The translations under genes were made by a program, and so were the position numbers. 64,000 bases of DNA from Sphingomicrobium sp. XHP0239 (GTDB lineage Bacteria > Pseudomonadota > Alphaproteobacteria > Sphingomonadales > Sphingomonadaceae), in assembly GCF_039555325.1 (NCBI RefSeq), contig NZ_CP154608.1, positions 1,116,001-1,180,000 on the forward strand. The letters are read 5' to 3'. The notes under the pieces were generated by a model, which saw nothing but the letters and a program-made list of their open reading frames with translations, searched no databases and was not told the origin of the DNA. Of the stretch, positions 13,806 through 59,706 are shown one piece after another. Position 1 is the stretch's first letter; each line of letters opens with the position of its first letter.

Positions 13806-13825
13806 CCTTGTGAACGTTCACAAGG
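13806..13825. promoter_or_regulatory. perfect 20-bp palindromic operator before GH16 gene
   Basis: CCTTGTGAACGTTCACAAGG is an exact palindrome centred on CG, 15 bases upstream of the GH16 start codon and next to its ribosome site. The TGTGAACGTTCACA core resembles LacI-family operators. No LacI-type regulator is encoded in the window, so it would act in trans. Confidence 0.65.
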
Positions 13826-13868
13826 AATGTGCCCCACGAAATCGCCGCTGTCCAGAGACGCGCAACCC

Positions 13869-14582: not shown

Positions 14583-14665
14583 GTGCTGCGAAGCTCCCCT
14601 TGCCCCCGCGACCGGGGCAATCCGGCTGGGGGCTTTAACCCAGTAAGCGGTTGAATGATGGCCCC

Positions 14666-16306: not shown

Positions 16307-16590
16307 CACTTGCGCTCCTTCTTCCTGTACATAGCCAGCATCCGCTGGGTCACCGCGAAGCCGCCGAAGATGTTGATGCTCGCCAGCACGACGCCGACGA
16401 GGCCGAGCCATTTGGCGATCGCATTCCCGCTCGCCGCCGCCGCGATCAGCGCCCCGACGATGATGACGCTGGAAATCGCGTTGGTCACCGCCATCAACGG
16501 CGTGTGCAGCGCCGGGGTGACCGACCAGACCACGTAATAGCCGACGAAACAGGCCAGCACGAAGATCGACAGGATCGAGATGAAATCCAC
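16306..16590 (-). CDS. pntAB: NAD(P) transhydrogenase alpha subunit part 2
   Basis: A 94-residue membrane protein with three predicted spans (ISILSIFVLACFVGYYVVW, AISSVIIVGALIAAAAS, WLGLVGVVLASINIFGGFAV). It contains TPALHTPLMAVTNAIS, the conserved segment of the transhydrogenase dII domain. It forms the membrane part of the split alpha subunit known from Rhodospirillum. It overlaps pntB (TGATG). Its soluble partner pntAA lies 2.9 kb away at 19456-20631, separated by an unrelated opposite-strand gene. Confidence 0.93.
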   Translation of the reverse strand: MDFISILSIFVLACFVGYYVVWSVTPALHTPLMAVTNAISSVIIVGALIAAAASGNAIAKWLGLVGVVLASINIFGGFAVTQRMLAMYRKKERK

Positions 16591-16731
16591 TTGGGCGCCC
16601 CTCCGATTGAACGCGCGACCATGGCAAGGCGCGTCGCACGTGTCGAGGGGCCAGCGACACCGCCGCCGGGCAAGCGGTTAACCGCATTGGGGTTTCCCTT
16701 TTGATAACCTTTCTATGGGACAAGCGTCGTC

Positions 16732-19044: not shown

Positions 19045-19201
19045 CCTCTATCCCTAGCGAACACTGTTGACCGTTTCTCGCTGGTAACGACCCGGCGATA
19101 CGGCAGTTCTTCGCACTCCTTCCTCTCTGCAATCCGCCAATCCGTGAGCACCACCGTGCGGAAACGATCAGCACGCTGAAGTAGGCATTATAGTAAATTC
19201 C

Positions 19202-19230
19202 TTGCTTACCATTCCTATTAAGGTTAATAC
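19202..19230 (+). promoter_or_regulatory. sigma-70-like promoter of the microprotein gene
   Basis: TTGCTT at 19202-19207 and TAATAC at 19225-19230 with a 17-base spacer form a good housekeeping promoter. The start of transcription is expected near 19237, leaving a 5' leader of about 38 bases before ATG 19275. Confidence 0.5.
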
Positions 19231-19274
19231 TGTTCCTGCACTAGGGCATGTCGCCCGCAACTAGGGGACGAAAA

Positions 19275-19358
19275 ATGGTAAAGAAGATCGAAGGCCGTAA
19301 AGGCTTCTGGGACTGGGTACTCGGCGGTGGCTGGGGTTCGACCGGCGGCGCTGGCTAA
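19275..19358 (+). CDS. 27-residue Gly/Trp-rich microprotein
   Basis: A complete small transcription unit. AGGGGA lies 7 bases before ATG 19275, the coding region has 27 codons ending in TAA, a TTGCTT/TAATAC promoter lies upstream and a hairpin with a T-run follows 25 bases after the stop. The peptide is basic at the start (MVKKIEGRKG), has an aromatic centre (FWDWVLGGGWG) and a Gly-rich end (STGGAG). No family is recognised. It follows the CHASE2-EAL gene on the same strand by 230 bases. It could be a peptide signal, a small membrane-associated regulator or a peptide-natural-product precursor. None is proven. Confidence 0.6.
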   Translation: MVKKIEGRKGFWDWVLGGGWGSTGGAG

Positions 19359-19380
19359 GTCCTCGCTACAATCAAAAGAT

Positions 19381-19408
19381 TGACCCGGCTTCGGTCGGGT
19401 TTTTCTTT
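19381..19408 (+). terminator. intrinsic terminator after the microprotein gene
   Basis: ACCCG-loop-CGGGT stem with a GGCTTCGGTC-like tetraloop region, followed directly by TTTTTCTTT. It ends the plus-strand microprotein transcript. A separate 10-bp hairpin (GATCGAGCGG, loop CACA, CCGCTCGATC, 19434-19457) abuts the stop codon of pntAA on the other strand. Confidence 0.8.
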
Positions 19409-19455
19409 GCCTTCAGTCGGTTAGCCGACATTGGATCGAGCGGCACACCGCTCGA

Positions 19456-20631
19456 TCATCCCATGGCGCGAAGGCGCTCATGGACGATCTTTCCGCCCTT
19501 CGTCAGGCGGATCCCGGCGACGATCTCGTCATCGTCGGGCAACACGAGCCACGGCGAATCACCCGCCGAATCGCTGTGCGCATCCTCTTCCGATTCGGCA
19601 CTCGACTCCTCGATGAATGCGAGCAGGAAATTGGCGATGTTCCGCGAATAGAGTGCAGCGGCATCGCTCGCGAGCGCGCGCGCGGGCTGTACAGGCCCCA
19701 TGATCTGGACCCCGTGGCGTTCGACCGTCGCGCCCGCCGTACATCCCTCGACGTTGCCCCCCGCTTCGGCCGCGAGATCGACCACCACGCTGCCCGCCCG
19801 CATCGTCGAAAGCTGCGCATCGCTGATCAGCCGCGGCGCCGGCCGCCCGGGAATGAGCGCGGTCGTGATGACGATGTCCTGTTTGGCGAGATGGTTCGAG
19901 ACCAGTTCGGCCTGCGCCTTGCGATACTCCTCCGAGGTCTCGCCGGCATAACCGCCCTGCCCCTCGCCCTCGATCCCCTCGACATCCTCGACGAAGATCG
20001 GCTTGGCGCCGAGCGACTGGATCTGTTCCTTCGTTGCCGATCGCACGTCCGTGGCACTGACCTGCGCGCCGAGCCGCGTGGCGGTCGCGATCGCCTGCAA
20101 ACCCGCCACGCCCACGCCCATGACGAACACCCGCGCGGGGCTGATCGTCCCGGCCGCGGTCATCATCATCGGAAAGGCGCGCCCGTAGAGATGCGCGGCG
20201 TCGATGACCGCCTTGTATCCCGCCAAGTTCGATTGCGAGGACAGGATATCCATCGATTGCGCGCGGGTGATGCGCGGCATCCATTCCATCGCCAACGCTT
20301 CGATCCCGGCCTTCGCATAGGCCTCGATCGTGTCGCCGCGCGTCGCTGGCGACAGTGAGCCGATCAGCAGTGCGCCGCTCTTCGCTCCCGCCAGGTCGGC
20401 GGGCGGCGGTCCCTGAACGACCAGGATCGCGTGCGCATCGGCGATGGCTTCCTCGCGCGACACGATGGTCGCGCCGGCGTCCTCGAAGGCTGCGTCGGAA
20501 AAGCCCGCTCGCTCGCCCGCGCCCCGTTCGACCGCGACCCGCGCGCCCTTGGCGACAAGCTTTCCGACGGTTTCGGGGATGGCCGCGCAGCGCGGCTCGT
20601 CCTGCGCTTCCTTGAGGACTCCGAGCTTCAT
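19456..20631 (-). CDS. pntAA: NAD(P) transhydrogenase alpha subunit part 1
   Basis: A 391-residue soluble NAD(H)-binding dI subunit of the transhydrogenase. Family motifs seen: MKLGVLKEAQDEPRCAAIPE, RITRAQSMDILSSQSNLAGYKAV, FVMGVGVAGLQAIATATRLGA (Rossmann fold), and ALIPGRPAPRLIS. The ATG at 20631 overlaps the stop of the upstream oxidase subunit gene as ATGA, which fixes the start. The usual membrane part follows as a separate gene (pntAB), but here it is 2.9 kb downstream beyond the opposite-strand CHASE2-EAL gene. The C-terminus carries an acidic Ser/Asp/Glu-rich stretch before the last 35 residues. Confidence 0.93.
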   Translation of the reverse strand: MKLGVLKEAQDEPRCAAIPETVGKLVAKGARVAVERGAGERAGFSDAAFEDAGATIVSREEAIADAHAILVVQGPPPADLAGAKSGALLIGSLSPATRGDTIEAYAKAGIEALAMEWMPRITRAQSMDILSSQSNLAGYKAVIDAAHLYGRAFPMMMTAAGTISPARVFVMGVGVAGLQAIATATRLGAQVSATDVRSATKEQIQSLGAKPIFVEDVEGIEGEGQGGYAGETSEEYRKAQAELVSNHLAKQDIVITTALIPGRPAPRLISDAQLSTMRAGSVVVDLAAEAGGNVEGCTAGATVERHGVQIMGPVQPARALASDAAALYSRNIANFLLAFIEESSAESEEDAHSDSAGDSPWLVLPDDDEIVAGIRLTKGGKIVHERLRAMG

Positions 20632-45708: not shown

Positions 45709-46395
45709 ATGCTTCATCAACGCCATCATCTGACGAACCGCCTGCACGAATGGCGAGAGCGGCGATACGAGGCAGCGGCGCTCGAGCTGCAGCAACTTGC
45801 CGCCGACCTCGTTACCGATATCACCGCCGAGATTGCCTTCCTGCCGGACCGCGCCCTCCTGCTGAAGCAGGTCGGCTACATCAAGCGACGGGTCGTGAGA
45901 GAAATCGACGCAGCCGCGAAGGCTACGATGGAGCGTCATGTGGCCAAGGCGAACGAGGAGCTGCGCTTGCTCGCCGAAGAGATGCTCGCATGGCAGTCTT
46001 CACGAGCCGATCATCTGGATGCGGAAACCTTGCGAGCGCTCGGCGACGTTGCGTCGGCTGCGGCGCCGCTCGCGGGTGATCTCGCTGTCACCGCGTCGCT
46101 CTCGAGTCTTGCGAAGGTCGCGAGCGCCGGCATCCTCGGCTTGGGTGTCGCCCCTTTAATCAGCTGGCCGGCCGTCATCGTGGGCGGGACGGTGGCATCG
46201 GGCCTTCTCGCGACAGGCGTCATCAGGGCCAATCCGCTGGCAGCCAAAGCGCGCCGCCGTCTCGTCGAAGCAACGCGCGACACCATCGTCGCACATCTCC
46301 TCACCGGCTCGGAAAAGCAGCCTTCATTGTTGCGACAGTATGGCGACATGCTCGATCGAACGGTCGAAAACGCAAGGGGTCCTGATCGAATATGA
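45709..46395 (+). CDS. unknown protein with coiled coil and hydrophobic hairpin
   Basis: A 228-residue protein. An N-terminal amphipathic helical part (EWRERRYEAAALELQQLAADL, then a coiled coil to about 120) is followed by a strongly hydrophobic glycine-rich stretch at about 140-175 (AGILGLGVAPLISWPAVIVGG). The tail is basic. No family recognised. It overlaps the following gene by 4 bases, so they form one operon. The pattern of long helices plus a hydrophobic hairpin resembles membrane-inserting effectors (alpha-pore-forming type), which is inference. Confidence 0.65.
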   Translation: MLHQRHHLTNRLHEWRERRYEAAALELQQLAADLVTDITAEIAFLPDRALLLKQVGYIKRRVVREIDAAAKATMERHVAKANEELRLLAEEMLAWQSSRADHLDAETLRALGDVASAAAPLAGDLAVTASLSSLAKVASAGILGLGVAPLISWPAVIVGGTVASGLLATGVIRANPLAAKARRRLVEATRDTIVAHLLTGSEKQPSLLRQYGDMLDRTVENARGPDRI

Positions 46396-47405
46396 TTGAA
46401 CACATCGTCACGCGCGCCATTCCCGCCGCCGCACAGGCCGGCCTGCAGAGTGGAGAGCTGTCGCTGTTCGGGTCGGTCATTCGCCACGCCAGTTCGGGCC
46501 AGATCGCCTACCATCTCCAAGAGACGGGCGCGGTCGCAAAATTCCTCGCATCCGCCAATCCGCTCGGCGGCATTGGTAAATTCGCTGAGGTTGCCGCACA
46601 ACTGGGCGGCGACATGATGCTCTACCGACAGGGTCAGCAGATCAAGGAATCGGTCGAACTCGTCCTTGCTCAGCAGGTCACCGGGCTCGCGCTCTCCGGT
46701 GCAGCGCTAGGCGTTTCCGTCCTCGGCTTTGCGGCCTTGTCACGAAAGATCGGGAAGATCGATTCGAAGATCGACGCGCTGGCGGCCGGGCAGGACGCCA
46801 TATTGAGCGCGGTCGAGGATCTGCGTTCGGCAACAGTCACGCAGGATCTCGTCGATCTCAAGACGATCGCGCAGCAATGGGAAGAGAGCTGGTCGCTGTC
46901 CTCGCCCGCCGCGCAATTGGAGCGAGTGGCTGATGGCGGGCACCGGCTCGCCAACCGTTTCCACGAACGCGCAATGGTGAGCCTGACGCAGCACGGCGAC
47001 GTCCTTGCCGCGTCTCCCCTTCTCGATGCGCACGGGCTGGCCCAGGCCACCCGTATCGCGGCAAGGCTCGCTTCCGACGAAAAGGCCGCCGCCATCGCCG
47101 CCTCGCACGACGCGATGCTGCAATATGACGAGCTCGTCGACCATGCGAATGCCACCCGCGGGGCGATCGAACATCTCGGGCAGGAGTGGGACGCGACGTC
47201 GGCGGAGGGGCGCGAGGCACTTCAGCGACAGCTTGCCGACCGTCGCCACATCGCCACCGCCCTCCGAGACCGTGCCGACGCAACGGATGCGACGAGCGAC
47301 CTGATCAAGCTTCTCGCCCAGCGCTCGGCGAATGGACGCGCGTTTCTCGAGAGGGCTAGAGCCGAGGAGGAAGCGCCCTTCCTACTGATCGAGGCGTCAA
47401 ACTAA
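46392..47405 (+). CDS. unknown helical protein with one membrane segment
   Basis: A 337-residue mainly helical protein. Residues about 98-120 (GLALSGAALGVSVLGFAAL) form a hydrophobic helix. It is followed by a charged repeat-like helix KIGKIDSKIDALAAGQDAILSAVEDL and a long coiled-coil C-terminal half (about 150-330). No catalytic motif is visible. It is translationally coupled to the upstream gene and convergent with the RelE-helicase gene (29-base gap). It may be a second component of a two-protein membrane module in the defence region. Confidence 0.65.
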   Translation: MIEHIVTRAIPAAAQAGLQSGELSLFGSVIRHASSGQIAYHLQETGAVAKFLASANPLGGIGKFAEVAAQLGGDMMLYRQGQQIKESVELVLAQQVTGLALSGAALGVSVLGFAALSRKIGKIDSKIDALAAGQDAILSAVEDLRSATVTQDLVDLKTIAQQWEESWSLSSPAAQLERVADGGHRLANRFHERAMVSLTQHGDVLAASPLLDAHGLAQATRIAARLASDEKAAAIAASHDAMLQYDELVDHANATRGAIEHLGQEWDATSAEGREALQRQLADRRHIATALRDRADATDATSDLIKLLAQRSANGRAFLERARAEEEAPFLLIEASN

Positions 47406-47434: not shown

Positions 47435-49495
47435 TCAGCGAAATGACCGCAGGTCGTCCAGAAACTCGCTTCCCGGCGCGACGCCGGTCACCAGCAATTG
47501 ATCGCGGGCGCGGGTGCAGGCGACGTAGAGTAGGTGTCGCTCGGTTTCGAATGCGGCTTCCAATTCGCCAACATCGCCAATTGCATCGAAACGCGATGGG
47601 TCGGGGATCACATCCTCGTCGCAAGCCATCACTGCGACCGCGGGGAATTCGCGCCCCTTGGCCTCGTGCATCGTGACGACGCGAACGCCTCCGTCGTCGT
47701 ATCCGTTGAAGCCTGCCTCTTTCGCAGCAGCACGCGCCCGATCGAACTGATCGCGACTGCGCACGAGGATCGCGATGTCGGAGGGAGCGATGTCGTCGCG
47801 GACACAGGCCTTCAAGAAGGAGCCGACGGCCAACGCCTCGTCCTCGACGCCGTCGAAAAGGCGAATGTCCGGCTCGGGTCCATCGAAGACGGACATGGTG
47901 CCTCGCCTTCCTTCCTCCACCCCGTCCATGTCGGTGATCGACGGCGGGAGAAGCCTGTCTGCCATCGCCCTGATCTGGTGGGATGTGCGGTAATTGACCT
48001 TGAGCGAGTGGCTGCGTCCGCGAATGTCGAGCCCGAGCTTCGCCCAACTGAACGGTAAGCGGAAGATCCGTTGCCCGATGTCCCCCGCCAAGAAGAGCGC
48101 GTCCCCAAGATCCTGCCCGGCCTGGGCCAGAAAGCGCACCTGCGCCACGGTCAGGTCCTGCGCCTCGTCGACCACGACATGGTCGAACGGCAACCGACCT
48201 CCCCCCTTTATCCATTCGGTGACGCGGCCGAAGATCATGGCATTGGTCACGAGATTGCGTTTCCTGAGGCACTCCCGCACGTAATCGAAGACGCCCCACG
48301 CCGCTTCACGCTGGGCCGCGCCCAATCGAGTGCGACGACCGACGCGAGGAATCACCGCATAGCTTTCCTCGTCGACGACTCCCCACGCGTCCACCAGCTC
48401 GGTCCATTCCTCGAGAAGGAAGGTCTCGGTCAGACCGCCACCGAGGCCCGCATCCTTCGCAGCACCGATCATCGCCCGGATTTGCGAGGGCGTCGCGCGA
48501 TTGGGATGACCACACAACCCGGTGTAGAGTTCGCTGGCAGCCTGATCGAGCGTTCGCACCGTCATGCGCTCCCTCACCGCGGTTCGCGACTGCGTGAGCA
48601 GATCGAGCTTCGTGGACAAGGACGCGGCGAGATCTTTGGTGAAGGTCGTTACGAGGACCCGGGCATCCGAATTCGCTTCCGCAAGATGAACCGCGCGATG
48701 CAGCGCGACGATGGTTTTGCCCGTCCCCGCAGACCCCGTGACGCGCGTCGGTCCCGTCACCGGGCGTGAGACTAGGTCCCTTTGCGCCGGATGGAGGAAG
48801 ACCGCCCATTTCTCGAACGGCGCATCCAGCGCGGCCTGCAATTCCTCGATATTGTCGAGCACGCGGAAGCGGCGCTGTGCGTCGGGATGTGCGAACGGGT
48901 TCTCGCCCGCATCCACAGGCTCGACGACATGGTCCTCCAGCTTTCCGCCTGTCGCAAAATCATAAAGCGCCTCCGCGGCCTCGGCGGGCAGACGGTCGAA
49001 CAGCCCATCGACTTCGGCCGCGGCCATCGCGCGCACCGCTTCGAGCCAGTCGCGCGGAACGCCGACATCGAGCAACTGATCGTCGCTCAGGGCCCAAAAC
49101 GGCTGCTCCGTCGCGAACTCAGGACTGGCGACAGGCTGGTCGGCAACGCTGGTCGGATTCTCCGTTCGCTCGACAAGCTGGACGATCTGCATCGCCCCGG
49201 TCCGCTCGTGCGGGACGATTTTGCGCCGTTCAGCCCAGCGGTACGCATCGTCGTGATGTCCGACGTACGCCAGCAGATTGTCCTCGCCGTCGCGTCGCAG
49301 GATGATGCGAAGGTCGCGGCTGACCCGCGCGGACCAGAGGTTGTCGTCGCCGGCGCGCTTGATCCGCTCAAGACTAAGCCCCCCGCCCTTTGGGTCAGTC
49401 ATCAGATCGAAGGTCGTGATCTTGACCTGCTTCTGCTCCTGATGACTCAGCTTGCCGAGGGCATCGGCGAAGGTGGAAGAATAGAGGAGGGTCAC
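47435..49495 (-). CDS. RelE-like domain fused to UvrD-type helicase
   Basis: A 686-residue fusion. Residues 1-92 match the RelE/ParE fold (SLERIKRAGDDNLWSARVSRDLRIILRR and YVGHHDDAYRWAER). The rest is a superfamily 1 helicase: Walker A GSAGTGKT (254-261), VVVDEAQD, GDIGQRIFRL, VNYRTSHQI, VVTMHEAKGREF and LYVACTRARDQLLV. The helicase motifs are intact. This pairing occurs in defence islands. It is the last gene of the minus-strand run, overlapping the coiled-coil gene by 4 bases. The RelE part may bind nucleic acid or the ribosome; free toxin activity is not shown. Confidence 0.9.
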   Translation of the reverse strand: MTLLYSSTFADALGKLSHQEQKQVKITTFDLMTDPKGGGLSLERIKRAGDDNLWSARVSRDLRIILRRDGEDNLLAYVGHHDDAYRWAERRKIVPHERTGAMQIVQLVERTENPTSVADQPVASPEFATEQPFWALSDDQLLDVGVPRDWLEAVRAMAAAEVDGLFDRLPAEAAEALYDFATGGKLEDHVVEPVDAGENPFAHPDAQRRFRVLDNIEELQAALDAPFEKWAVFLHPAQRDLVSRPVTGPTRVTGSAGTGKTIVALHRAVHLAEANSDARVLVTTFTKDLAASLSTKLDLLTQSRTAVRERMTVRTLDQAASELYTGLCGHPNRATPSQIRAMIGAAKDAGLGGGLTETFLLEEWTELVDAWGVVDEESYAVIPRVGRRTRLGAAQREAAWGVFDYVRECLRKRNLVTNAMIFGRVTEWIKGGGRLPFDHVVVDEAQDLTVAQVRFLAQAGQDLGDALFLAGDIGQRIFRLPFSWAKLGLDIRGRSHSLKVNYRTSHQIRAMADRLLPPSITDMDGVEEGRRGTMSVFDGPEPDIRLFDGVEDEALAVGSFLKACVRDDIAPSDIAILVRSRDQFDRARAAAKEAGFNGYDDGGVRVVTMHEAKGREFPAVAVMACDEDVIPDPSRFDAIGDVGELEAAFETERHLLYVACTRARDQLLVTGVAPGSEFLDDLRSFR

Positions 49496-49854
49496 GTCTT
49501 CCGCGGCTCCTCGACAACTTCATCATCCGGAAATGTCGAAGCTTTTCGAGCTGCCTGTCGTGCTTGCTCGGCGAGGCGCAGATCGCTTCTGGGTTTCTCA
49601 AGCGCCGCACGCGCCTTCTTCACGCGCTCTTCGGCCTCCTTCACCAACTTGTTCGATTGCGCTCGCCACTGAAAAACTGACAGACCTGCGCGGCGCGCCT
49701 TCTCAATCGTGAGGAAGCCTCTAAATTTATCAGTCTTTTTGCTGGCTTTTTTCTTCCTTTTCTTCTCGATTTTTCCACGCGCCAGTCGCCCTAGCCCTAC
49801 GAAAGACCCGTGTAGCCCGGCCCAGCCGGAGCCCCCAACGCGGCGCTTCTTCAC
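49492..49854 (-). CDS. small basic coiled-coil protein in the restriction operon
   Basis: A 120-residue protein from GTG 49854, which has GGAGG ten bases upstream. A Gly-rich beginning is followed by a very basic run (GKIEKKRKKKASKKTDKFRG) and a charged helix (NKLVKEAEERVKKARAALEKPRS to LAEQARQAARKAS). The tail is acidic. No family recognised. It lies 5 bases after the methyltransferase and overlaps the helicase by 4 bases, so it belongs to the same unit. Likely a nucleic-acid-binding or bridging subunit (inference). Confidence 0.6.
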   Translation of the reverse strand: MKKRRVGGSGWAGLHGSFVGLGRLARGKIEKKRKKKASKKTDKFRGFLTIEKARRAGLSVFQWRAQSNKLVKEAEERVKKARAALEKPRSDLRLAEQARQAARKASTFPDDEVVEEPRKT

Positions 49855-49859
49855 CCCCT

Positions 49860-52800
49860 CTAAACCTCCAGCACCTTCATCACCTCGTCGCCGAGATGGT
49901 TGACCACCTTCACCGCGACCCGCCCGTCGCTCGGCCGCTCGAACGGCCGTGACCGCGTCCGGTTGAGGCTTTCCCACGCTTCCTGGTCGATCTCGGCCTT
50001 CAGCGTGGTCTTCAGCGCCTTGTACGGATCGTTCGCGCCCGGGAAGTAGGCGTGGCGCACGAAGAAGCTCTCGTAATTGTAGTCCGTGTCGATGAACCAC
50101 ACCGCGATGTCGTCCGCGTCGCCGCTCTCGATTTGGCCGCCCTTGTACATATCGACGCCCATCACCTCGATGCTGACCATGCCCTCGCCCTCGTCGTGCA
50201 CGGCGATGTCGGGCTCGCCGAACACGGTGAATAGGTTGCCTGCACCGGTGTTGGCGAGGTCGGGCATGTGGAGGTCGGGGTTGATGCGCGCCTGCAGCAC
50301 GGTGAGCGGACCCATCTTGGTGAGCTCGCCCGCATGCGCGTCGAAGTTGAACGCGGCAGCGATGAGAATGTCGAACCCGGCGTCGCAGGCTTCCTTCGCC
50401 GCGGCCACCAGCGCGGGGCGCGACACGGTCCCATATTCGGGTCCGACGAAGATGGCGGCACGGCGCGTCGGCCGGTCGCCCGAATTGGGAAATTTCCCAA
50501 CTTCCTCCTCGCCGTCGCTCTCCGCCTCGTCGAGCGATCGCTGCACGACCGTGCCCTCGGCGACCACGAATTCGCCCGGCCACAGCTTCATCGTCTCGAA
50601 GACGAGCTTGTCGGCCTTGGCGCGCTGCTGCACGCCCGAGCGCTTGAGATTGTCGAGCACCATCTCGGCAAAGTCGGCGCGTTCGCCGCTTTCGCCTTTC
50701 TTGGCCCTGCCCTCGGCCGCCTCGATCTCGTCGAAAAGGCTGTCGTCCACGTCCACGGCGGGGACGCGGTGGGGGCTGAGGCTTTCGACCGTGAACGGGC
50801 CGGCCACGCGGACGCGGCTCTTGTCCTCGTAAGGCTGGTCGTAGAGATATTCGGTGTCCGCCTTGGCGGCGATGCTGGCATCGATTTCCTGCTGACGTTC
50901 GATGCGCAGCTTCCACCATTCGGCGTGAAGCTTCTCGCACTCCGGGTCGTTCCAGGGATCGACCGGATGTTCGGGCAGCGTGTCGAGAGTGTAGTCGCGG
51001 CCCAGATCCTCATTCAGCTTGCCGAGCCACTTTATGCGAACGGCATCTGAGCCGGGACCGCGCGCCTTCTCCAGCGCCTTCGCGGCATCGTCAGGCCACG
51101 GCGCGCCGGGTTCGCGCGGCATGGTCCATTCCTCGAAGCGCGGCCGGTCGGGGTCGGAGCCGTCGCGGCCGCGCATCGCGTTGATCTCGGCGCGCAGGGG
51201 TTCGAGCTTTTCCTGATACTCCTCCCAGATCGTGTCGATCTCGGCATTGTTGGCGATACTTTTGAGTGTGATGTGCGGCACGCGCTTGTAGACGAAGCCC
51301 TGGCGGATGCGGCCCTGTGTCGGCGTGTCGCGCGGCGGGGTGCGGGTGATCTCGCCTTCCTTCACCTGCCCCTCGCGGCTGTCGGCGAGCAGATACCAGG
51401 GATAGCGTGCGCCCATGATCCGCGCCCGGGCGAGCGCGAGCGCGACCCGGCTCGTGTCGATCGTGATCCACCGCCGCCCCCACTGCTCGGCGACATAGGC
51501 GGTGCTGCCCGAGCCGCAGGTCGGATCGATCACTAGGTCACCGGGATCGGTTGTCATCAGGATGCAGCGTTCGATTGCGAGGTGAGCAGTCTGAACGACG
51601 TAGACTTTCTCGCCACCGAATTGGTTTTGACCGACAGTATCCGTCCACACATTAGCAATGGGAAAAACAGGATTGTCTTGAAGTCTACGAAGCTGACCGA
51701 GTCCCTTTCCTGCTTGGACGACGCGACCCGCGAGCATCAAGCGGGCCATACCCTGTTCAGTCGTGCCCCACCATCTCGGCTCCGATCGATATTTCTTTCC
51801 TCGAAAATTAATGTCGTAGCGCGAGCCGGGGCCAGGTTTTGTAAGGTCGCCCACTCCAGCAAGTTCGCCGTCGGTGATATTCTGAGGATCGTTACGTTCG
51901 TCACGAGTGGCTGCTCGGATCACTCCATCTGAAGCTAGAACTTTGGTCAATCCGGTAGCGCCCTGTTCCGGCGTTTTATTCAACATTAGCTGGCGATATT
52001 TGATGCGGTCTTTCTCTTTCGCATACCAAACGATGTAATCATTAGCAGTAGGAAGGAGGTTAGCGCCAAACCCGGAATTCTTGTTGAAGCTGATTAAACT
52101 GACGAAGTTCTCGTCCCCAAATACCTCGTCCATTAGCGCTCGGACCCGGTGGACGTTCTCATCCGAGATCTGGACGAAAACGCTGCCGCTCTCGGTCAGC
52201 AGGTCGCGCGCGACAGTCAGGCGGTCGCGCAGATAGGTGAGGTAGGAGTGGATGCCGTCCGCCCAAGTGTCGCGGAAGGCTTTCACCTGCTCAGGCTCGC
52301 GCGTCAGGTGATCGGCCTTGCCGTCCTTCACATCGCGCGATGTGGTGGACCACTGGAAGTTAGAGTTGAACTTGATGCCATAGGGCGGGTCGATATAGAT
52401 GCACTGCACCTGGCCCTTGAGCCCCTCGCGCTCCGCCAGCGATGCCATCACCTTCAGTCCATCGCCCAGGATCATGCGGTTCGACCAGTGCTGGTCATGC
52501 GCGTAGAACTCGGTCCGCGCCTCCGGATCGACGCCATTGAAATCGGCGAAGAGATCGCCGAACAGCCCGGCCTCGTCGTCTGCTTCGTCGCGCTGGCTGG
52601 CGCGCTTCAGGTCTTCGATCAGCGCCTTGGGATGAATCTTCTCCTGGATATAGAGCGGCGGCGCCTCGACCACGAGGTCCGACCAGTCCGCCACATCCTT
52701 CCCCCGCCACACCAGCTGCGGATCGAGATCGCGATTGCGCCGCTCGTAAGCGACCTCGATCGGCCGCTTGACCTCGGCATCGACGAAGGTCTCGAGCTCC

Positions 52801-52877
52801 GCCGTCGGCGCGTTCTTGCGGGTTGCCTCGTCGTGCGTGAGGGTTTCGACGGTGAGGGGTTTCTTGGGCTTGGGCAT
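49860..52877 (-). CDS. type III-like DNA adenine methyltransferase (Mod)
   Basis: A 1005-residue beta-class N6-adenine methyltransferase. DPPY is at 163-166 in CIYIDPPYGIKFNSNFQW, followed by LTESGSVFVQISDENVHRVRALMDE and the SAM motif VIDPTCGSGSTAYVAEQWGRRWITID. A long C-terminal half (from about 540) carries further domains, presumably DNA recognition. The ATG at 52877 shares a base with the stop of the preceding gene (TAATG), fixing the start. With the Res gene it forms a type III-like restriction-modification pair; recognition site unknown. Confidence 0.9.
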   Translation of the reverse strand: MPKPKKPLTVETLTHDEATRKNAPTAELETFVDAEVKRPIEVAYERRNRDLDPQLVWRGKDVADWSDLVVEAPPLYIQEKIHPKALIEDLKRASQRDEADDEAGLFGDLFADFNGVDPEARTEFYAHDQHWSNRMILGDGLKVMASLAEREGLKGQVQCIYIDPPYGIKFNSNFQWSTTSRDVKDGKADHLTREPEQVKAFRDTWADGIHSYLTYLRDRLTVARDLLTESGSVFVQISDENVHRVRALMDEVFGDENFVSLISFNKNSGFGANLLPTANDYIVWYAKEKDRIKYRQLMLNKTPEQGATGLTKVLASDGVIRAATRDERNDPQNITDGELAGVGDLTKPGPGSRYDINFRGKKYRSEPRWWGTTEQGMARLMLAGRVVQAGKGLGQLRRLQDNPVFPIANVWTDTVGQNQFGGEKVYVVQTAHLAIERCILMTTDPGDLVIDPTCGSGSTAYVAEQWGRRWITIDTSRVALALARARIMGARYPWYLLADSREGQVKEGEITRTPPRDTPTQGRIRQGFVYKRVPHITLKSIANNAEIDTIWEEYQEKLEPLRAEINAMRGRDGSDPDRPRFEEWTMPREPGAPWPDDAAKALEKARGPGSDAVRIKWLGKLNEDLGRDYTLDTLPEHPVDPWNDPECEKLHAEWWKLRIERQQEIDASIAAKADTEYLYDQPYEDKSRVRVAGPFTVESLSPHRVPAVDVDDSLFDEIEAAEGRAKKGESGERADFAEMVLDNLKRSGVQQRAKADKLVFETMKLWPGEFVVAEGTVVQRSLDEAESDGEEEVGKFPNSGDRPTRRAAIFVGPEYGTVSRPALVAAAKEACDAGFDILIAAAFNFDAHAGELTKMGPLTVLQARINPDLHMPDLANTGAGNLFTVFGEPDIAVHDEGEGMVSIEVMGVDMYKGGQIESGDADDIAVWFIDTDYNYESFFVRHAYFPGANDPYKALKTTLKAEIDQEAWESLNRTRSRPFERPSDGRVAVKVVNHLGDEVMKVLEV

Positions 52878-53896
52878 TATTTGCGGTCCTGCGGCGCGCA
52901 TTTGTGCGTGATTTCGAGTTCCTCGATCAATCGGCGATGATCCTCCTTCAGTGGGTCTTCCGTCACTAGTGCGACCTCGATTAGCTTGCCCTTCAAACTA
53001 GGCATTGCTTCAGAAACCGCCCGATATTTCACGCATTGAAATATCCCGCGATAATGTTCGGGATCCCCGCAAAACCGCGGTTTGACCTCAACAAGCCATA
53101 GCGTGTCAGCAGTTTCCAAGAGCACGTCGGCGACGTCTGCAGAGTCCAATCGAAATTCTGGCTCCGCTTCAATGCAATGCGGTTCGCCGGTCACAAATTC
53201 GGGGTTATTTTTGACCCACTCCTTGAGGTTGCGATGCGCATCGCTTTCGCCGCGTGGGTCGTAACCGTACGGCTTTCCGCCGGAATCGATCTTCAGCTTT
53301 GAATGATTAGGCGTGGCAAGTTTGTCCGGGTCGTCAGCCCACGAGGCGGCTTCAGAAATCGATACTTGTTTCTGCAGCCAATCGAGCATTTTGCGACGCG
53401 ACAGCTTTTTGTCTTCGGAATCTTTGGCGTTGCCTCCGTTAACGTAATAGATGCCGGTCGATCCAATTCGATGTCCCACTGGGAGCTGGAATTTCTCTCG
53501 CTCATCCAATGGGATCAAAGCGGCGTGTTCGCTCACCAAGCTGAATTTGTATCGGTCGGCTCCTTTAATTGTGGGGAACGACGGATCGCCGTCATATTCC
53601 TTCCGCACCTCATATGGCACGATACTCGCACCTTCATACCAACCGACAAGTCGTAGCCTCGATCTATCGTCCGGCTTCGACACGAGAAAGACCGTCCATT
53701 TTTGGTCCGTCTTGTTCGCCAGAGATTCTGTACTGCGGAGATAGGCGTAGTAGCGCCCCTCGTGTGGTTTAAAGTTGAAAGCCTCAACCCCGGTGCCGTG
53801 ATCGCGCACATAGCCATGGCTGCTCTTGACCGGTGTGCCGCCATAATCTTCCGACCAGCCGATATTCGCGATGATCACATTCTCCCACATGCTCAT
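52877..53896 (-). CDS. PD-(D/E)XK nuclease with possible PUA/EVE-like reader domain
   Basis: A 339-residue protein between Res and Mod. Residues 1-165 have a pattern reminiscent of PUA/EVE-like reader folds (WTVFLVSKPDDRSRLRLVGWYEGASIV at 67-93, then YKFSLVSEHAALIPL); I cannot name a family. The C-terminal part has EWV (226-228), D257 in DVADVLLE, E270-V-K272 in LWLVEVK and FQCVKYRAV, the arrangement of PD-(D/E)XK nucleases. It starts in a 4-base overlap with Res and ends sharing a base with Mod. Modified-DNA recognition coupled to cutting is inference. Confidence 0.75.
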   Translation of the reverse strand: MSMWENVIIANIGWSEDYGGTPVKSSHGYVRDHGTGVEAFNFKPHEGRYYAYLRSTESLANKTDQKWTVFLVSKPDDRSRLRLVGWYEGASIVPYEVRKEYDGDPSFPTIKGADRYKFSLVSEHAALIPLDEREKFQLPVGHRIGSTGIYYVNGGNAKDSEDKKLSRRKMLDWLQKQVSISEAASWADDPDKLATPNHSKLKIDSGGKPYGYDPRGESDAHRNLKEWVKNNPEFVTGEPHCIEAEPEFRLDSADVADVLLETADTLWLVEVKPRFCGDPEHYRGIFQCVKYRAVSEAMPSLKGKLIEVALVTEDPLKEDHRRLIEELEITHKCAPQDRK

Positions 53897-56800
53897 GCCC
53901 CCACTCCATCCATCCAGTCCTGGATCACCCGCTCGAATTCGCTCTGCATCGTCCATTTCTCGGTGAATTCGGCGAAGGCCCAGCGGCCCATCGTGCCGAG
54001 CGTATTCACCCCCGGCACCCAATAGGTGCGCATCGTGTCGGCCTTGTCCTTCGCATCCTCGTTGCGGAAGCCCTTGATCTCGACGACCACATGTAGCGGA
54101 TCGTCCGGGCCTTGGCCGTCGTCGACCTTCAGGATGAAGTCGGGCCGATAGCGGCGCGCCTCGCCGCCGGCGCGATAGGGCACCTCGAAGCCGAGGTTGT
54201 GGTTCTTCACCCAGGCGAGCACGCGCGGATGTGCATCGGCGACGCGGCAGAACTCCAGCTCCCAGTCGCTGTCCGCGATCGCATAGTTGACGTGGCACTT
54301 GGGGCCCGTCTGGTAGCGGTCCTGACTGGTGTTGAAGCCGACATGCCGGGTCGAGCCCTCGCGATTGTAGGGGTCGAGCATGGCGATGACGCGATTGCCG
54401 CCCTCCTCGCCGCGGTGGATCGCCTTCTTGATGCGTTCCGCCACCCGGTCGGCGATGTCGTAGTAGAGCAATTGCGCAGGCTGCGTGTCGCCCTTCAGCA
54501 CCAGATGGTCGGCCATCCAACGACGGACGATCTTGCGCATCTCCATGACAAGCGAGGGGTTCGCGATCTCGCCGTCTTCGGTGAAGTGGCGCTGGACGAG
54601 ACGGTTCGCGAGCTTGAAGACGATTTCGGTCTGCCGCTTCATCGAGAGATGGTCGAGATTGAAGTCCGCCGTCTCGCCGATGATCCCCGAGTTCACCGTC
54701 TTGGTCGCGCCCGCCAGTTCGGGTGTCAGTTCGAGCGTGGAATCATCGTTGAATTCTGCGCTCAGCGTGTCGCGCGGCAGTTCGGTGCGATAGCCCTCGA
54801 CCCGCGGGAAACGGATCTCGACGTCGTCGCGCTCGGGGCTGATCGCCTCGACGCGCACCATCGGCGGCGGCGGGGTGATGTTCGCCTGGACGGGCTGAGC
54901 GGTGAAGTCGAACGGGATGCCGAAGATGTCGGCATATTCGACCGCGAACTTGCCCTCCGCATCGGCTTGGTACGACACGCGGCGCAGCGCTCGCCCGATG
55001 ACCTGCTCGCAGAGGAGCTGTGTCCCGAACGCGCGGACACCAAGGACGTGGGTGACCGTATTCGCGTCCCACCCCTCGGTGAGCATCGAAACGGAAACCA
55101 CGCAGCGAATGTTGGCACCCAGTTGCCCCGGGCGCCCGACGGTATTCATCACCTCGCGCAGGATCGCCGTGTCATCGATCTTCTCGGCCGCGGCTCGGTC
55201 GCCGGTGCGCTGGACGAACTCCTCCTTAAATCGTTCAATCTCACTCTGTGCGGCGTTCTTGAACTCCGCACTGATCGCCTCGCCGCTGTCGATCTGCTGA
55301 CTGTCGATCAGAAGCGTGCGCATCAACGGAAGCTCCGTATCGTCCGGTGCGTAGTTTCGGAAAAGCTCGCACTTCCCTCGCTGGAGCGTCCGGTTCCCGT
55401 TTTTGTCCTCGACCTCGTAGCCCGCGATGTAATCGTGGACGAGCTTACTAGTCGCCGTGTTGTTGCAGACGACGATAAAGACGGGTTCGACGTTGAGGCC
55501 GGCGGCTTTCCAAGCATCGAAGGTCTTCACGTAATGGCCGTAGAGCGCGTCGATCGCAGACAGCAGCTCGTTGGGCAGCTTCTGAGGATCATCGAAGCCC
55601 GACTTGCCGCGCCCCTTCTTCGGGAGCTTCTTGCCAATATGCTCCCACAGGTCGCGAAACATCGGCATGTCGCCATGCTCGACGTTGTCGACGATCGGCA
55701 CGCGCGGCAGCTTCACGATGCCGCACTCGATGGCGTCCATCAGGCTGAAGTCGCTCATGACCCAGCCGAACAGCGATCCCTCGCGGTAGCCCGAGCCTTT
55801 CAGGAAAAATGGCGTGGCCGACAGATCGTAGACCATGTTGATCCCGAGCGTGCGTTTGACCGCCTCGAGACCGCTGATCCACAGCCGCGCCGCCTCGTTG
55901 TTCTCCTTCGCTTCGGCCTTCTCGTCGCCCTTGAGGGTCTTCTCCTCCTCCGCCGTCAGCGGGCGCTCGCGGTAGCAGTGGTGTGCCTCGTCGTTCAGCA
56001 CGACGACGTTTTTCATACCCAGCAGCGGTCCTGCCACACGCCGCAGCATCGCACCGTCGCTCTCGGGCTTCGTGACCGTATTCAGCGCCGCCTGCTGGAC
56101 CTTGTTGAGGCTGACCTCGTCCTTCTTCTTGAACGAGTGATAGTTCGTGATGACGATCTTCGCCTGCCCCAGGTCGCGGAGCATGTCCTCGGGCACGAGT
56201 TGGCGGTGCGCGTAATAGCTTTCGGGGTCATTCGGTTGCAGCACCCGCAGCCGATCCTTGATGGTGATCCCCGGCGCGACGATGAGGAAGCCCTTGCTGA
56301 ACTTCTTGGCGTTCGGATGGCGTACCGCGTTCAATGTGTGCCATGCGATCAACATCGCCATCACCGTCGTTTTCCCCGCCCCGGTCGCCAGCTTGAGCGC
56401 CATCCGCATGAGGGCCGGATTGGAAGCGGCATTAGCGGCTTCTAGGTGCGTCCAGAACCTACGGCCCTGCGCAGAAGTCTTAGGGGCAACCTCGGTTAGC
56501 CAGATAACCGTTTCGACCGCCTCGATCTGGCAGAAGAAAGGGGGAAGAGGCATTTCGCCGGACCGCCAATGCCGAAGCAGCCGGGCGGTAGTGGGCGTTA
56601 CATGCCACTGGCTTTCCGACAATGTCCTCCAACTGGCGACAGCCGACCGAATTCCGTTGATGACTTCGGTCGGATTATATTCCTGACCGCCCTCACCGAG
56701 AAGAAAATCGCCCTGTTCCGCCGAAGCATTCCTGCCTCGGCGGGTCCTCGCCTTGGGAATAGGCGTCGTGAGGTCGCTTTTTCGTCGGCCGGGCTCGATA

Positions 56801-56901
56801 ATTCCAGTCGGCTGACCACCCTCGCCGAGATGCCAATGCCGGTCCGGCAGCGCATAGGGTGAGTTGAGGATCGGCGATTGAAAGAACTCTTCACTACTCA
56901 T
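53893..56901 (-). CDS. type III-like restriction helicase-nuclease (Res)
   Basis: A 1002-residue superfamily 2 helicase with a C-terminal nuclease. Walker A LATGAGKTT is at 171-179, the DEAH-type box NDEAHH at 303-308, then VYDLSATPFFL, MLTEGWDANTVTHVLG and QVIGRALRRVSY. Near the C-terminus RPDFILKVDD and HVVVEIKGF give a PD-(D/E)XK site. It resembles the BPTD_3080-type restriction endonuclease group. ATG 56901 (MSSEEFFQSP) is preferred to TTG 56919. It precedes the reader-nuclease gene by overlap and follows the UDG-like gene by 64 bases. Confidence 0.9.
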   Translation of the reverse strand: MSSEEFFQSPILNSPYALPDRHWHLGEGGQPTGIIEPGRRKSDLTTPIPKARTRRGRNASAEQGDFLLGEGGQEYNPTEVINGIRSAVASWRTLSESQWHVTPTTARLLRHWRSGEMPLPPFFCQIEAVETVIWLTEVAPKTSAQGRRFWTHLEAANAASNPALMRMALKLATGAGKTTVMAMLIAWHTLNAVRHPNAKKFSKGFLIVAPGITIKDRLRVLQPNDPESYYAHRQLVPEDMLRDLGQAKIVITNYHSFKKKDEVSLNKVQQAALNTVTKPESDGAMLRRVAGPLLGMKNVVVLNDEAHHCYRERPLTAEEEKTLKGDEKAEAKENNEAARLWISGLEAVKRTLGINMVYDLSATPFFLKGSGYREGSLFGWVMSDFSLMDAIECGIVKLPRVPIVDNVEHGDMPMFRDLWEHIGKKLPKKGRGKSGFDDPQKLPNELLSAIDALYGHYVKTFDAWKAAGLNVEPVFIVVCNNTATSKLVHDYIAGYEVEDKNGNRTLQRGKCELFRNYAPDDTELPLMRTLLIDSQQIDSGEAISAEFKNAAQSEIERFKEEFVQRTGDRAAAEKIDDTAILREVMNTVGRPGQLGANIRCVVSVSMLTEGWDANTVTHVLGVRAFGTQLLCEQVIGRALRRVSYQADAEGKFAVEYADIFGIPFDFTAQPVQANITPPPPMVRVEAISPERDDVEIRFPRVEGYRTELPRDTLSAEFNDDSTLELTPELAGATKTVNSGIIGETADFNLDHLSMKRQTEIVFKLANRLVQRHFTEDGEIANPSLVMEMRKIVRRWMADHLVLKGDTQPAQLLYYDIADRVAERIKKAIHRGEEGGNRVIAMLDPYNREGSTRHVGFNTSQDRYQTGPKCHVNYAIADSDWELEFCRVADAHPRVLAWVKNHNLGFEVPYRAGGEARRYRPDFILKVDDGQGPDDPLHVVVEIKGFRNEDAKDKADTMRTYWVPGVNTLGTMGRWAFAEFTEKWTMQSEFERVIQDWMDGVGA

Positions 56902-56965: not shown

Positions 56966-57622
56966 CTAGCGCTTCATCGACGCGAACGACGCTGCTTCCT
57001 TAAATAGTTTTTCGACGTCTTCGCTCTGGCCATTATCGCGGCCGAAGATGCCGTATCGACTGGGATGGGGCATGGCGAGGATGCGCTTGCCGTCCGGACT
57101 GTCGTAGACATCGATGCTGGCATTGCCCCAGCCCGTCGACATTCGAGCGACCCATTTCGCTTCCATGAGCTCTGCAAGATACTGCGCGGGCATCTTCCCC
57201 ATCGTGATGAAGAGCTGCGCCGGGGAAATGCCCAGCACCCAAGTCCAAAGCTTGCGCGCCGTCTCGATCGCCGCTTCGCGATTTTCGAGCTTATCCCATG
57301 TCGGCGAACGGAATGGCACGAATTGCGCGCAGAGCACGTCGTCCTCGGCCAAACCGAGGAGCTCATGCCAGCGATGAATCTGCTTCTGGAGCGGGTTGTA
57401 CGTATCTCTCGCGCCCCACCTTTCCGAGAAATAGGTATTCTTCTCGCTGTCCCAGTGTCGGCCATATTGAGAGGGATCGCCGCCGCCACCGGGGTTCAGC
57501 CCGACAATGGCGACCTTTGCCGACCGAAGTGCTTCCTCGGGCGTCCCCATGAACGACCAGCCAAGCTTATGGCCTTGATCCTCATAAGCCTTTTCGATGA
57601 CGTCCTTTGAAAATTCTTTCAC
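56966..57622 (-). CDS. uracil-DNA glycosylase-like protein in the defence cluster
   Basis: A 218-residue protein with the UDG-superfamily pattern: motif 1 VAIVGLNPGG (G-x-N-P-G type, as in TDG/MUG enzymes), a central GISPAQLFITMGKMPAQYLAEL, and motif 2 AMPHPSRYGIFG. The start is GTG 57622 with AAAGGGGAT upstream. UDG enzymes remove uracil or modified bases. The active-site Asn in GLNPG is present, but activity is unproven. It lies between the tandem-AAA gene and Res on the same strand. A role in handling modified phage DNA is inference. Confidence 0.78.
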   Translation of the reverse strand: MKEFSKDVIEKAYEDQGHKLGWSFMGTPEEALRSAKVAIVGLNPGGGGDPSQYGRHWDSEKNTYFSERWGARDTYNPLQKQIHRWHELLGLAEDDVLCAQFVPFRSPTWDKLENREAAIETARKLWTWVLGISPAQLFITMGKMPAQYLAELMEAKWVARMSTGWGNASIDVYDSPDGKRILAMPHPSRYGIFGRDNGQSEDVEKLFKEAASFASMKR

Positions 57623-57696
57623 TTTCTATCCCCTTTATTCTTGTCATTCGTGATCGAGTGGAATCATGCCGTAAAGCGTGCGCGCCGGACACTAGA

Positions 57697-59706
57697 TCAA
57701 TTGGAAAGCCGCTGTGCCGCTTCTTTGGCTAGCCATCCTGCGATGACGTCAGGGTCGCGTTCGCCAAGAAGCGCTGCTCGCCTTCGGACCACATCGAAAT
57801 CTCCCGGCGTCAGCGACGCCGCAAAATGGCCGGTAGTGGGAAGGGGTTCGCCAGTCATGCGCCTGAACAGCGTAGCGCTCTGATCGACATTGAGGCTGTC
57901 AAACGAGACACGCAGCGCGAAGCGCCGCTGGCTGGCCGGGTCGAGCATGGTCGCAAGATTGGTGGTGGCGACGAACGGGTGCTCAAGATCCTCCATCTGC
58001 CGGAGCAGCTCGTTGGTCTGCGAGCGTTCCCAGCTACGATGCGCAGCCCTTCGATCGGCGAGGAAATCGTCGGCCTCGTCGATGAGCAGCAAACTTCTCG
58101 ATCGCCTCGCCTCCGCGAACGCATCGGCGATGGCCTGCTCGGTACCACCGACATAGCAGTCGAGGAGATCTGACCCGCGCTTTTCGATGAGGTCGAGCCC
58201 CAATCGTCGCGCGAGGAAGCGGGCGTAGGCGCTCTTGCCGGTGCCCGAAGGTCCGGAAAGCAGCATGCTCCACCCCCGCGTCGATGAGTGCACCAGCCGG
58301 TCGCAGAGCGAACGGAGGTCGATGTCCGCGTTGGAGAGGTCAGGGTCAAAATCGAACAACTGTTCACGATATCGCGGGCGGCGGCCGGTCGTCGCCAACA
58401 TCATCTCCTCACCGGCGAGGATGGCGTCTTTTGCATTACCGCCAATGCGCGAGGCCGTCTTCATGGCGCCAGCGACGATCGCCGGCGTGACGTCGAGTTG
58501 CGCAAGTTGCGCAGCCTCGTCTTTATGCAGTGGGATGCCCTCTGAGCGGCTGACCTGAAGGGCAATCCGCTCTCGCTTCGAGCGCGAAGGCTTGTCGAAT
58601 CGAATAGCCAGGGCCATGCGACGAATGATCGACTCCTCGATGGCACGGGTCTCGTTCATGATCCATATGAGTGGCACCTGCGGGCGATCGACAAGGTTAT
58701 TGAGCCACATCTTGGATCGTTTCGCAGGAAACCCGCCGCCCAAGATCAGGACGTCATCGGCCTCATCGAAGATCAGCAGATGATCGTTCGATCCTCCGGT
58801 GATCGCTTGCAGCGTTCTGAGCTCCTGCAATCGATCCCTACGGTCCGGCTCCTCTCCATTGGCGTCGGTCTCGCCCACAAGGATCGGACGTCGACCCACG
58901 TCTTTCGCAATCAGTTTCGCGAACTCGGTCTTTCCCGTGCCGGGCGGTCCGTAAAAAAGCAGCGATGCGGGAGCGCCGCTGGCGACGATGCGCCGCACGA
59001 GCGAGGCAACATCGCCGAGGTGATCGAAATCGGAAAAATCCAAATTTGTCGGATCGACCTCAGGCAAGAGCAGGCGTTTAAGATCAGTTTTCCGCGAGAT
59101 CCCGGATCGGGCGACGCGGATCAGAAGATCCGACGTGCGGATTTCTCCATCGCCATACTTACCGATCAAGCCAGCTTGCACCAACTTCGATGATGACGCC
59201 ACGCAGCGTTCGAACTCGGTCGCAGACAGCCCGACCAAAGGTGAGATCGCTGCAAAATCTGCGGAACTCTGACGCCCGGATTTTCCGAGTGCTTCGAGCA
59301 GCTCCTCCCAGCGTTGATCGATGGCTGAACGCGCTAGGACAAGCGCGATACGTGTGGAGGCCTCATCTGCGCCGACCATTTGGCACAGCGCCGTAATTCC
59401 CAATTTCAGTGGGCTTTTACGCAATGGTCGTCGCGGCGCCGGGCGAGCAAATCGTTTAGCAATTGCTGGCCGATCATTGGGCGCAATGGCATCCAGATCG
59501 AAGTGGGGTGCATCCGGGTCGGAAAGGTGAGAAGCATAAACCCGCAGCAGTTCTTCGGCCGACTTCCGCAGGCGCGTTTCTGAAAGGTGTCGAACGGCCG
59601 TCACCCACGCGTTTCGAAACGCCTCGAACTCGAGGTCAACTTCGTTCGGCGCGGCCTCTCCGGGAATGCGGTCGGCTACTGTTGATTGGAAATTCTCGGT
59701 CTGCAT
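57697..59706 (-). CDS. tandem AAA+ ATPase
   Basis: A 669-residue ATPase with an N-terminal helical domain (about 1-215) and two AAA+ modules. Module 1 has FYGPPGTGKTEFAKLIAK, LLIFDEADDVLILGGG and NETRAIEESIIRRM. Module 2 has LSGPSGTGKSAYARFLARRLG, LLLIDEADDFLADRR and ATNLATMLDPASQRRFALRV. Both Walker A and B are intact. This is the CDC48-like/COG0464 group seen in defence and proteolysis contexts. Position between mcrC and the UDG-like gene suggests an accessory motor or switch in the cluster. Function unassigned. Confidence 0.85.
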   Translation of the reverse strand: MQTENFQSTVADRIPGEAAPNEVDLEFEAFRNAWVTAVRHLSETRLRKSAEELLRVYASHLSDPDAPHFDLDAIAPNDRPAIAKRFARPAPRRPLRKSPLKLGITALCQMVGADEASTRIALVLARSAIDQRWEELLEALGKSGRQSSADFAAISPLVGLSATEFERCVASSSKLVQAGLIGKYGDGEIRTSDLLIRVARSGISRKTDLKRLLLPEVDPTNLDFSDFDHLGDVASLVRRIVASGAPASLLFYGPPGTGKTEFAKLIAKDVGRRPILVGETDANGEEPDRRDRLQELRTLQAITGGSNDHLLIFDEADDVLILGGGFPAKRSKMWLNNLVDRPQVPLIWIMNETRAIEESIIRRMALAIRFDKPSRSKRERIALQVSRSEGIPLHKDEAAQLAQLDVTPAIVAGAMKTASRIGGNAKDAILAGEEMMLATTGRRPRYREQLFDFDPDLSNADIDLRSLCDRLVHSSTRGWSMLLSGPSGTGKSAYARFLARRLGLDLIEKRGSDLLDCYVGGTEQAIADAFAEARRSRSLLLIDEADDFLADRRAAHRSWERSQTNELLRQMEDLEHPFVATTNLATMLDPASQRRFALRVSFDSLNVDQSATLFRRMTGEPLPTTGHFAASLTPGDFDVVRRRAALLGERDPDVIAGWLAKEAAQRLSN

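Follow-up and report, generated by a model that had tools for sequence, protein, structure and literature searches.

A probable three-subunit type III-like restriction-modification operon with exchangeable internal cargo in Sphingomicrobium

Introduction

Type III restriction-modification (RM) enzymes act as Mod2Res1 complexes that cut between two unmethylated sites, and in the system EcoP15I the genes stand in the order mod-res. For ARMADA, the accessible portion of a 2025 preprint reports that loss of any of the four genes abolished protection, as did a Walker A change in the helicase ArmD, whereas a Walker B change cost only part of it, and that protection came without growth arrest (PMC12458937). 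Hma is made up, in the available part of its description, of a helicase (HmaA), a 5-methylcytosine methyltransferase (HmaB) and an ATPase (HmaC) (PMC8565338). Defence genes can also be embedded in other systems: the available sections of three reports describe TgvAB (PMC11411939) and DarTG2 (PMC12255303) in type I RM loci and BrxU in BREX (PMC12373910), put embedding in Hma on record (PMC11411939, PMC12255303), and suggest hsdS-hsdR as a recombination hotspot (PMC11411939, PMC12255303, PMC12373910). Here we describe a five-gene operon in Sphingomicrobium sp. XHP0239, found in a stretch of 64,000 nucleotides (bases 1116001-1180000 of a 2.42-Mb single-contig genome) that is referred to below as the window, with positions counted from its first base. 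The operon is probably a type III-like RM system with a RelE-UvrD helicase as third core subunit and two internal slots for cargo genes, acting in the way proposed in the Discussion.

Results

Gene content of the operon

All five genes lie on the minus strand, at the coordinates given by an initial annotation made from the sequence of the window. The first, Res (53893..56901), encodes a superfamily 2 (SF2) helicase with a C-terminal PD-(D/E)XK-type endonuclease motif. Between it and Mod lies the slot 1 gene (52877..53896), whose 339-residue product is a predicted EVE/YTH-like reader joined to a NucS/EndoMS-like PD-(D/E)XK nuclease. Mod (49860..52901) is a beta-class N6/N4 DNA methyltransferase; it is followed by the slot 2 gene (49492..49854, GTG start) for a basic protein of 120 residues with a glycine-rich N terminus, labelled a coiled coil in the initial annotation, and by the gene for an ArmD-like RelE-UvrD helicase (47435..49495, GTG start) with intact superfamily 1 motifs. 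Res and the reader-nuclease gene overlap by 4 nt, the reader-nuclease gene and Mod by 25 nt as called, or by 1 nt if Mod starts at 52877; a 5-nt gap separates Mod from the small basic gene, which overlaps RelE-UvrD by 4 nt. The open reading frame (ORF) coordinates thus bear out the annotation's account of five minus-strand genes joined by overlaps or a 5-base gap. The internal ATG at 52877 is likely to be the start of Mod, judged by its better fit to the family alignment than 52901.

Res scored 1254 bits with NF046055 (the BPTD_3080 family; cut-off 800) and 39.7 bits with PF04851 (ResIII), above that model's cut-off, while RE_endonuc gave 15.5 bits, below its cut-off of 23.4, and the only PADLOC matches were to REase_III, at 27 bits. 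Walker A, DEAH, motif VI and a PDF..EIKG motif are conserved across 121 aligned Res ORFs, and by these motifs Res has the SF2 motor and C-terminal PD-(D/E)XK domain of a type III enzyme. Mod matches PF01555, carries DPPY, and scored 1167 bits with the PADLOC MTase_III model PDLC03632, by far the best among the matches listed (the best 25 of 46). It is also akin to EcoP15I Mod (E=2.8e-13), and has a variable region between DPPY and motif I. This region includes a cassette at the position of the target-recognition domain (TRD; 51570..52105, minus strand), where DNA identity to close relatives breaks.

Recurrence and co-inheritance of the three-gene core

Loci were collected with Mod as bait from genome contigs (the top 80 among 579 or more matches), viral contigs (64 loci), genomes of the same class (20 regions) and plasmids (7), so that locus counts are not population frequencies. 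With the window, 172 loci were examined (171 fetched, L008-L178); 9 without a Mod above 300 bits and 32 with a Mod of 300-600 bits were dropped, leaving 131 (Mod above 600 bits). Res was present within 6.5 kb upstream of Mod in 120 of these; 85 have RelE-UvrD no more than 8 kb downstream of Mod, and 81 have all three genes. Fourteen further units from an order-level search bring the number of distinct complete three-gene units to 95. Record titles of complete units, with phyla assigned by us, suggest a spread over eight or more phyla: Pseudomonadota, Acidobacteriota, Gemmatimonadota, Cyanobacteriota, Planctomycetota, Nitrospirota, Verrucomicrobiota and Actinomycetota. The initial annotation had proposed looking for the same gene order in other genomes; the order of the core does recur, in these 95 units, but the slot genes turn over.

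Searches that started from the helicase led back to the same neighbours. In the class, 17 RelE-UvrD copies above 500 bits were found in 16 of 385 genomes; Mod lies near 14 of them, L018 and L019 (see Discussion) included, and the other three begin at a contig edge. In the order, RelE-UvrD was matched at E<=1e-100 in 22 of 396 genomes. Mod adjoins RelE-UvrD in all 20 order loci fetched, and Res is in view in 18, the two without it ending at contig edges. Of these 18 units, four repeat known loci, and the other 14 differ from the 81 and from one another. The remaining two matches are the window itself and a helicase fragment without Mod (G531). Ten of 11 plasmid records at least 45% identical to RelE-UvrD have a Mod match nearby, the exception being L230, described below. 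As a separate observation, Thermus brockianus (L231:9989-17205) carries a divergent Mod-DUF3800-Res arrangement followed by an AbrB/PIN pair, a related scaffold with another core order.

Across the 81 units, the pairwise identities of Res were correlated with those of RelE-UvrD (r=0.87) and of the Mod core (r=0.61), and those of the Mod core with those of RelE-UvrD (r=0.58), each with p=0.001 in a Mantel test made without species-tree control. Identity in the Mod TRD was uncoupled from that of RelE-UvrD (r=0.05) and of the Mod core (r=0.10, p=0.06). Such correlations can stem from shared ancestry of loci or species; what is informative is that the TRD and the slots behave differently.

These data bear on a simpler explanation, in which Res and Mod are a plain type III RM pair and the helicase and slot genes are defence-island passengers sharing the operon. 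RelE-UvrD is not in view at 39 of the 120 Res-Mod loci; as the sequence of 25 of them extends 6 kb or more downstream, the helicase is optional. The neighbouring McrBC, IetA-like AAA and JukB-like genes make the region an island, and, in the accessible part of the ARMADA preprint, RelE-UvrD works in another system as well. Against this explanation, RelE-UvrD stands on the same strand after Mod, with Res ahead, at 81 of the 131 loci, which come from several phyla, and its identities track those of Res (r=0.87) while the slot genes turn over. We consider this explanation quite unlikely.

Exchange of slot genes and of the recognition domain

Slot 1 was defined as the interval between Res and Mod and slot 2 as that between Mod and RelE-UvrD; slot genes are open frames taken without a coding model, and small ones may be false. 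Both slots were filled in 48 of the 81 units, slot 2 only in 15, slot 1 only in 5, and neither in 13; L219 is an additional cargo-free unit outside the 81. Even between units with closely similar Mod proteins (40 pairs with identity of at least 0.8), slot 1 contents were unrelated in 30 pairs and related in 8, with one slot empty in 1 pair and both in 1, and slot 2 contents were unrelated in 29 and related in 4, with one slot empty in 7.

The window DNA was aligned to 10 relatives. In six (L035, L036, L037, L202, L205 and L217), Res aligned at 74-77% identity up to a stop at 53890-53933, and the alignment restarted at 52867-52897, at the start of Mod. It broke again from about 52100 to 51570-51620, in the TRD, and then ran to the end of Mod, where in five of the six it stopped, to restart at 49502-49319, the start of RelE-UvrD. 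The sixth, L205, has a slot 2 gene related to that of the window, and its alignment is continuous through slot 2. Related cargo likewise carried the alignment into slot 1 in L038 and into slot 2 in L209. L040, which has no Res, aligned continuously through slot 2, and L220 aligned in pieces only. Since DNA identity breaks at these boundaries, slot 1, the TRD and slot 2 are three cassettes exchanged within a conserved frame.

An integrated five-part machine, in which the reader-nuclease and the small basic protein redirect Res and Mod to modified DNA, would agree with the tight gene overlaps. It would also agree with Croceibacterium mercuriale (L038), which has a full reader-nuclease together with a related small basic protein, and with L205 and L031 (the latter linked through L038), where domain-variant slot 1 genes accompany such a small protein. 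All cargo is nevertheless absent from 13 of the 81 units, the reader and nuclease halves are each found with other partner domains in slot 1, and in two congeneric species the place of the reader-nuclease is taken by GmrSD (L209) or by nothing (L220). Such a machine is therefore very improbable. The initial annotation had suggested a type III-derived system with two motors; the type III-like Res and Mod and the RelE-UvrD core remain of this suggestion, but one fixed five-part system does not.

The RelE-UvrD helicase

The helicase passes the UvrD_C and UvrD-helicase cut-offs, has K260 in motif I, and is matched by GajB models. Its N terminus (residues 1-95; 49211..49495, minus strand) is confidently predicted from the structural model to be a RelE fold, and fold search placed it in the RelE/ParE superfamily. 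The fold matches include Cami1, a RelE-type CRISPR effector, on the ribosome. Homologues give better sequence support than the window copy, where it is weak (ParE_like, E=0.13); against PDB sequences, phmmer with this region gave only weak, unrelated matches, and the RelE profile gave none at E<=1. The domain is present in all 85 RelE-UvrD ORFs above 500 bits, with R63, H81, Y85 and W87 invariant in 85 of 85. These four and D82 are also kept in all eight aligned proteins that include the ARMADA II-type copy of L226, to which the window helicase is about 33% identical over its length. No RelE-UvrD was found at E<=1e-25 in the phage records searched.

A RelE domain on a motor raises the alternative of a phage-triggered abortive system, in which cutting by Res would activate RelE through the UvrD motor and halt translation. 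The confident fold, the match to Cami1 and the four invariant residues speak for it, whereas ARMADA, which contains ArmD, shows no growth arrest in the accessible text of the preprint, and both near-invariant histidines are changed in the window's clade. We regard it as unlikely; it overlaps the explanation that we favour, so that the likelihoods assigned here do not sum to one. As to the role of RelE itself, the invariant residues argue that the domain is in use, and the lack of growth arrest with ARMADA counts against a strongly toxic effect.

A close relative of the helicase, 74% identical to that of the window, was found on a Qipengyuania citrea plasmid (L230, region 7787-19757), placed between a TM0106 RecB-like nuclease with a small gene and a DUF4011 protein. 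This is perhaps another system using the RelE-UvrD motor.

Cargo in the window and in other units

In the slot 1 protein the reader part covers approximately residues 1-185 and the nuclease part residues 217-339. The latter has the PD-(D/E)XK domain of type IV enzymes, with D257, E270 and K272 invariant in 10 aligned sequences. The protein is probably an enzyme of type IV style directed at modified DNA, as predicted from a model with a mean predicted local distance difference test (pLDDT) score of 73.9, in which residues 15-37 and 187-216 fall below 50 and the N-terminal EVE/YTH-like fold is matched at Z scores reachable by unrelated folds. Neither the reader gene nor the small gene matched a Pfam model at E<=0.1, or a PADLOC or NCBIfam model at E<=0.01, and a reader profile gave no useful match to PDB sequences. 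Four near full-length and two partial reader homologues were found, and two homologues of the small gene (P0009, P0010).

The small protein has a pI of 11.2, with 35 lysine and arginine against 14 aspartate and glutamate residues, and relatives in slot 2 of L038, L040, L205 and L209. A role as antitoxin for RelE was set aside for this strongly basic protein; at 14 of 85 loci no more than 60 nt separate Mod from RelE-UvrD, and the RelE domain is thus tolerated without a slot 2 protein.

For cargo elsewhere, 144 slot proteins were scanned (at least 110 residues, viral loci excluded), from a first slot ORF set that left out genes whose frame opens into Mod, including the window's own slot 2 gene. 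Among the best 25 of 77 Pfam families were AAA_15/AAA_21, GmrSD, Bro-N, NYN, SIR2_2, Peptidase_S8, HerA DUF87 and PIN; PADLOC gave 462 families at E<=1e-5, many of them overlapping ATPase models. Sixteen of 20 representatives of the 144, chosen from larger clusters and long proteins and so not at random, had a PADLOC match at 1e-10, compared with none of 10 control genes of the window outside the island. Their families include HEC-05, HEC-06, SoFic, IetS, HerA, LmuB, NsnB/AriA-like, BrxHI/DrmD-like and PDC. Cargo outside the window includes GmrSD-, SoFic-, IetS-, Lamassu- and HerA-like proteins. Much of the cargo may be unstudied, since 99 of the 235 ORFs in the first set are without relatives in other slots.

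Two kinds of cargo are recorded separately. The Res-Mod slot of Picosynechococcus pAQ5 (L033:9217-9961) holds a toxin-antitoxin-like UPF0175/DUF3368 pair. A BrxHI/DrmD-like helicase of about 955 residues stands in slot 2 ahead of RelE-UvrD in L009 (2080-4947), where the family match was tested, and in L026 (7127-9988), assigned by similarity to it; a link between the Res-Mod-RelE-UvrD core and ARMADA-like helicase sets is possible.

Neighbouring genes

Upstream of Res on the same strand are McrC and a gene that, by its place and sequence, we regard as McrB. Between McrC and Res stand two genes, one of the UDG superfamily and one a double-AAA gene that matches IetA-like proteins (together at 56966-59706). 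In Croceibacterium mercuriale (L038) the DNA similarity to the window's McrBC stops only 300 nt before the Res alignment begins, so that exchange may also take place at a third site, ahead of the core. Downstream, a JukB-like gene (41 bits, PADLOC) and a short partner (45709-47405), convergent to RelE-UvrD across a 29-nt gap, are possibly a JukAB-like pair.

Discussion

We propose that Mod would methylate adenine at a site read by the exchangeable recognition region and so mark self DNA, and that Res would travel along unmethylated DNA and cut through its C-terminal PD-(D/E)XK domain. RelE-UvrD, co-inherited with Res, would load on DNA broken or remodelled by Res and aid its degradation or clearance, while the RelE domain may act on nearby mRNA. 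At the two slots, other defence genes would be exchanged for one another and share the expression of the operon, and the predicted modification-dependent endonuclease in slot 1 of the window would act against phages that evade the core by modifying their bases.

Besides the Res-Mod loci without the helicase, the missing species-tree control, the selected representatives and the uncertain slot 1 model, several observations weigh against this proposal. Res had no phmmer match among solved-structure chains at E<=0.01. L018 and L019 show a Mod-Res order, their RelE-UvrD lying on the opposite strand, and the operon of L230 has a close RelE-UvrD with neither Res nor Mod around it. RelE-UvrD matches contain an internal stop in 3 of 22 cases in the order and 2 of 20 in the class. 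At the positions of E43 and R67 in the window RelE domain, histidine is found in 81 and 79 of 85 relatives, respectively, and a strong RelE toxin effect is disfavoured because ARMADA protects without growth arrest.

The results extend guilt by embedding to a widespread, systematically searchable type III-like scaffold, in which genes between a BPTD_3080 Res and Mod, or between Mod and RelE-UvrD, are good defence candidates. One RelE-UvrD motor serves two different methylase-helicase architectures, and RelE function is therefore directly testable by comparison. More speculatively, RelE-UvrD might be a general third motor of unrelated methylase-helicase systems that couples restriction to a translation-directed RelE, with the slots and TRD forming a three-cassette platform for rapid exchange; we hold this wider view to be unlikely.

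The initial annotation knew of no described system with exactly this gene set. Searches of open-licence papers, at the level of titles and the beginnings of abstracts, listed none on Res-Mod-RelE/UvrD or the slots, although a preprint by Payne (2024) may already list the scaffold. Hma was rejected, as no Hma model matched Res at E<=0.01 even though HmaA is in PADLOC-DB, and Mod is an N6_N4_Mtase. Gabija, in which the nuclease GajA stands beside GajB, was rejected because none of the five genes had a GajA match among the matches listed (the best 25 for Mod and the helicase).

ARMADA type II is, in the accessible portion of the preprint, likewise a methylase-helicase operon ending in the RelE-UvrD helicase ArmD (PMC12458937), and the last gene of the window unit is of this kind, RelE joined to a GajB-like UvrD. 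The subunits described there as BrxHII-like (ArmA), PglX-like (ArmB) and YprA-like (ArmC) stand, however, where the window unit has Res, of the NF046055 family, and Mod, whose best match among those listed is MTase_III; the five-gene unit has no further large gene. ARMADA itself was rejected, only ArmD being common to both. By annotation, an E. coli plasmid (L226) fits the ARMADA II gene order and a Thermus locus (L227) resembles it. Extra genes, an NYN gene and a small gene, lie between core genes in the ARMADA II-like loci of L227 (446-13986) and Haematobacter (L229:1-14100), and internal slots may thus be general among RelE-UvrD operons.

Like type III RM systems of the EcoP1I/EcoP15I kind, the window unit has a beta-class Mod with DPPY and a central variable region, and a Res with an SF2 motor and a C-terminal PD-(D/E)XK-type motif. 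It differs in that Res precedes Mod, Mod has about 1,010 residues compared with 644 in EcoP15I, Res has no phmmer match to solved chains and scores only 27 bits with REase_III, and a third helicase gene and cargo slots are added. The slot 1 gene resembles the EVE-domain type IV enzymes in the available part of their description (PMC7641849), with a predicted EVE-like reader and an endonuclease domain in a defence context, but differs in having no Pfam match to its N terminus at E<=0.1, a NucS-like C terminus and a place in a type III-like operon. With the embedded-gene systems, as far as the available sections of those reports go, the operon shares defence genes lodged between the core genes of another system; the scaffold is different, and combines two separate slots with an exchangeable recognition region. 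The division of labour that we propose between slot 1 and the core is like that described, in the available text, for TgvAB in its type I RM locus (PMC11411939).

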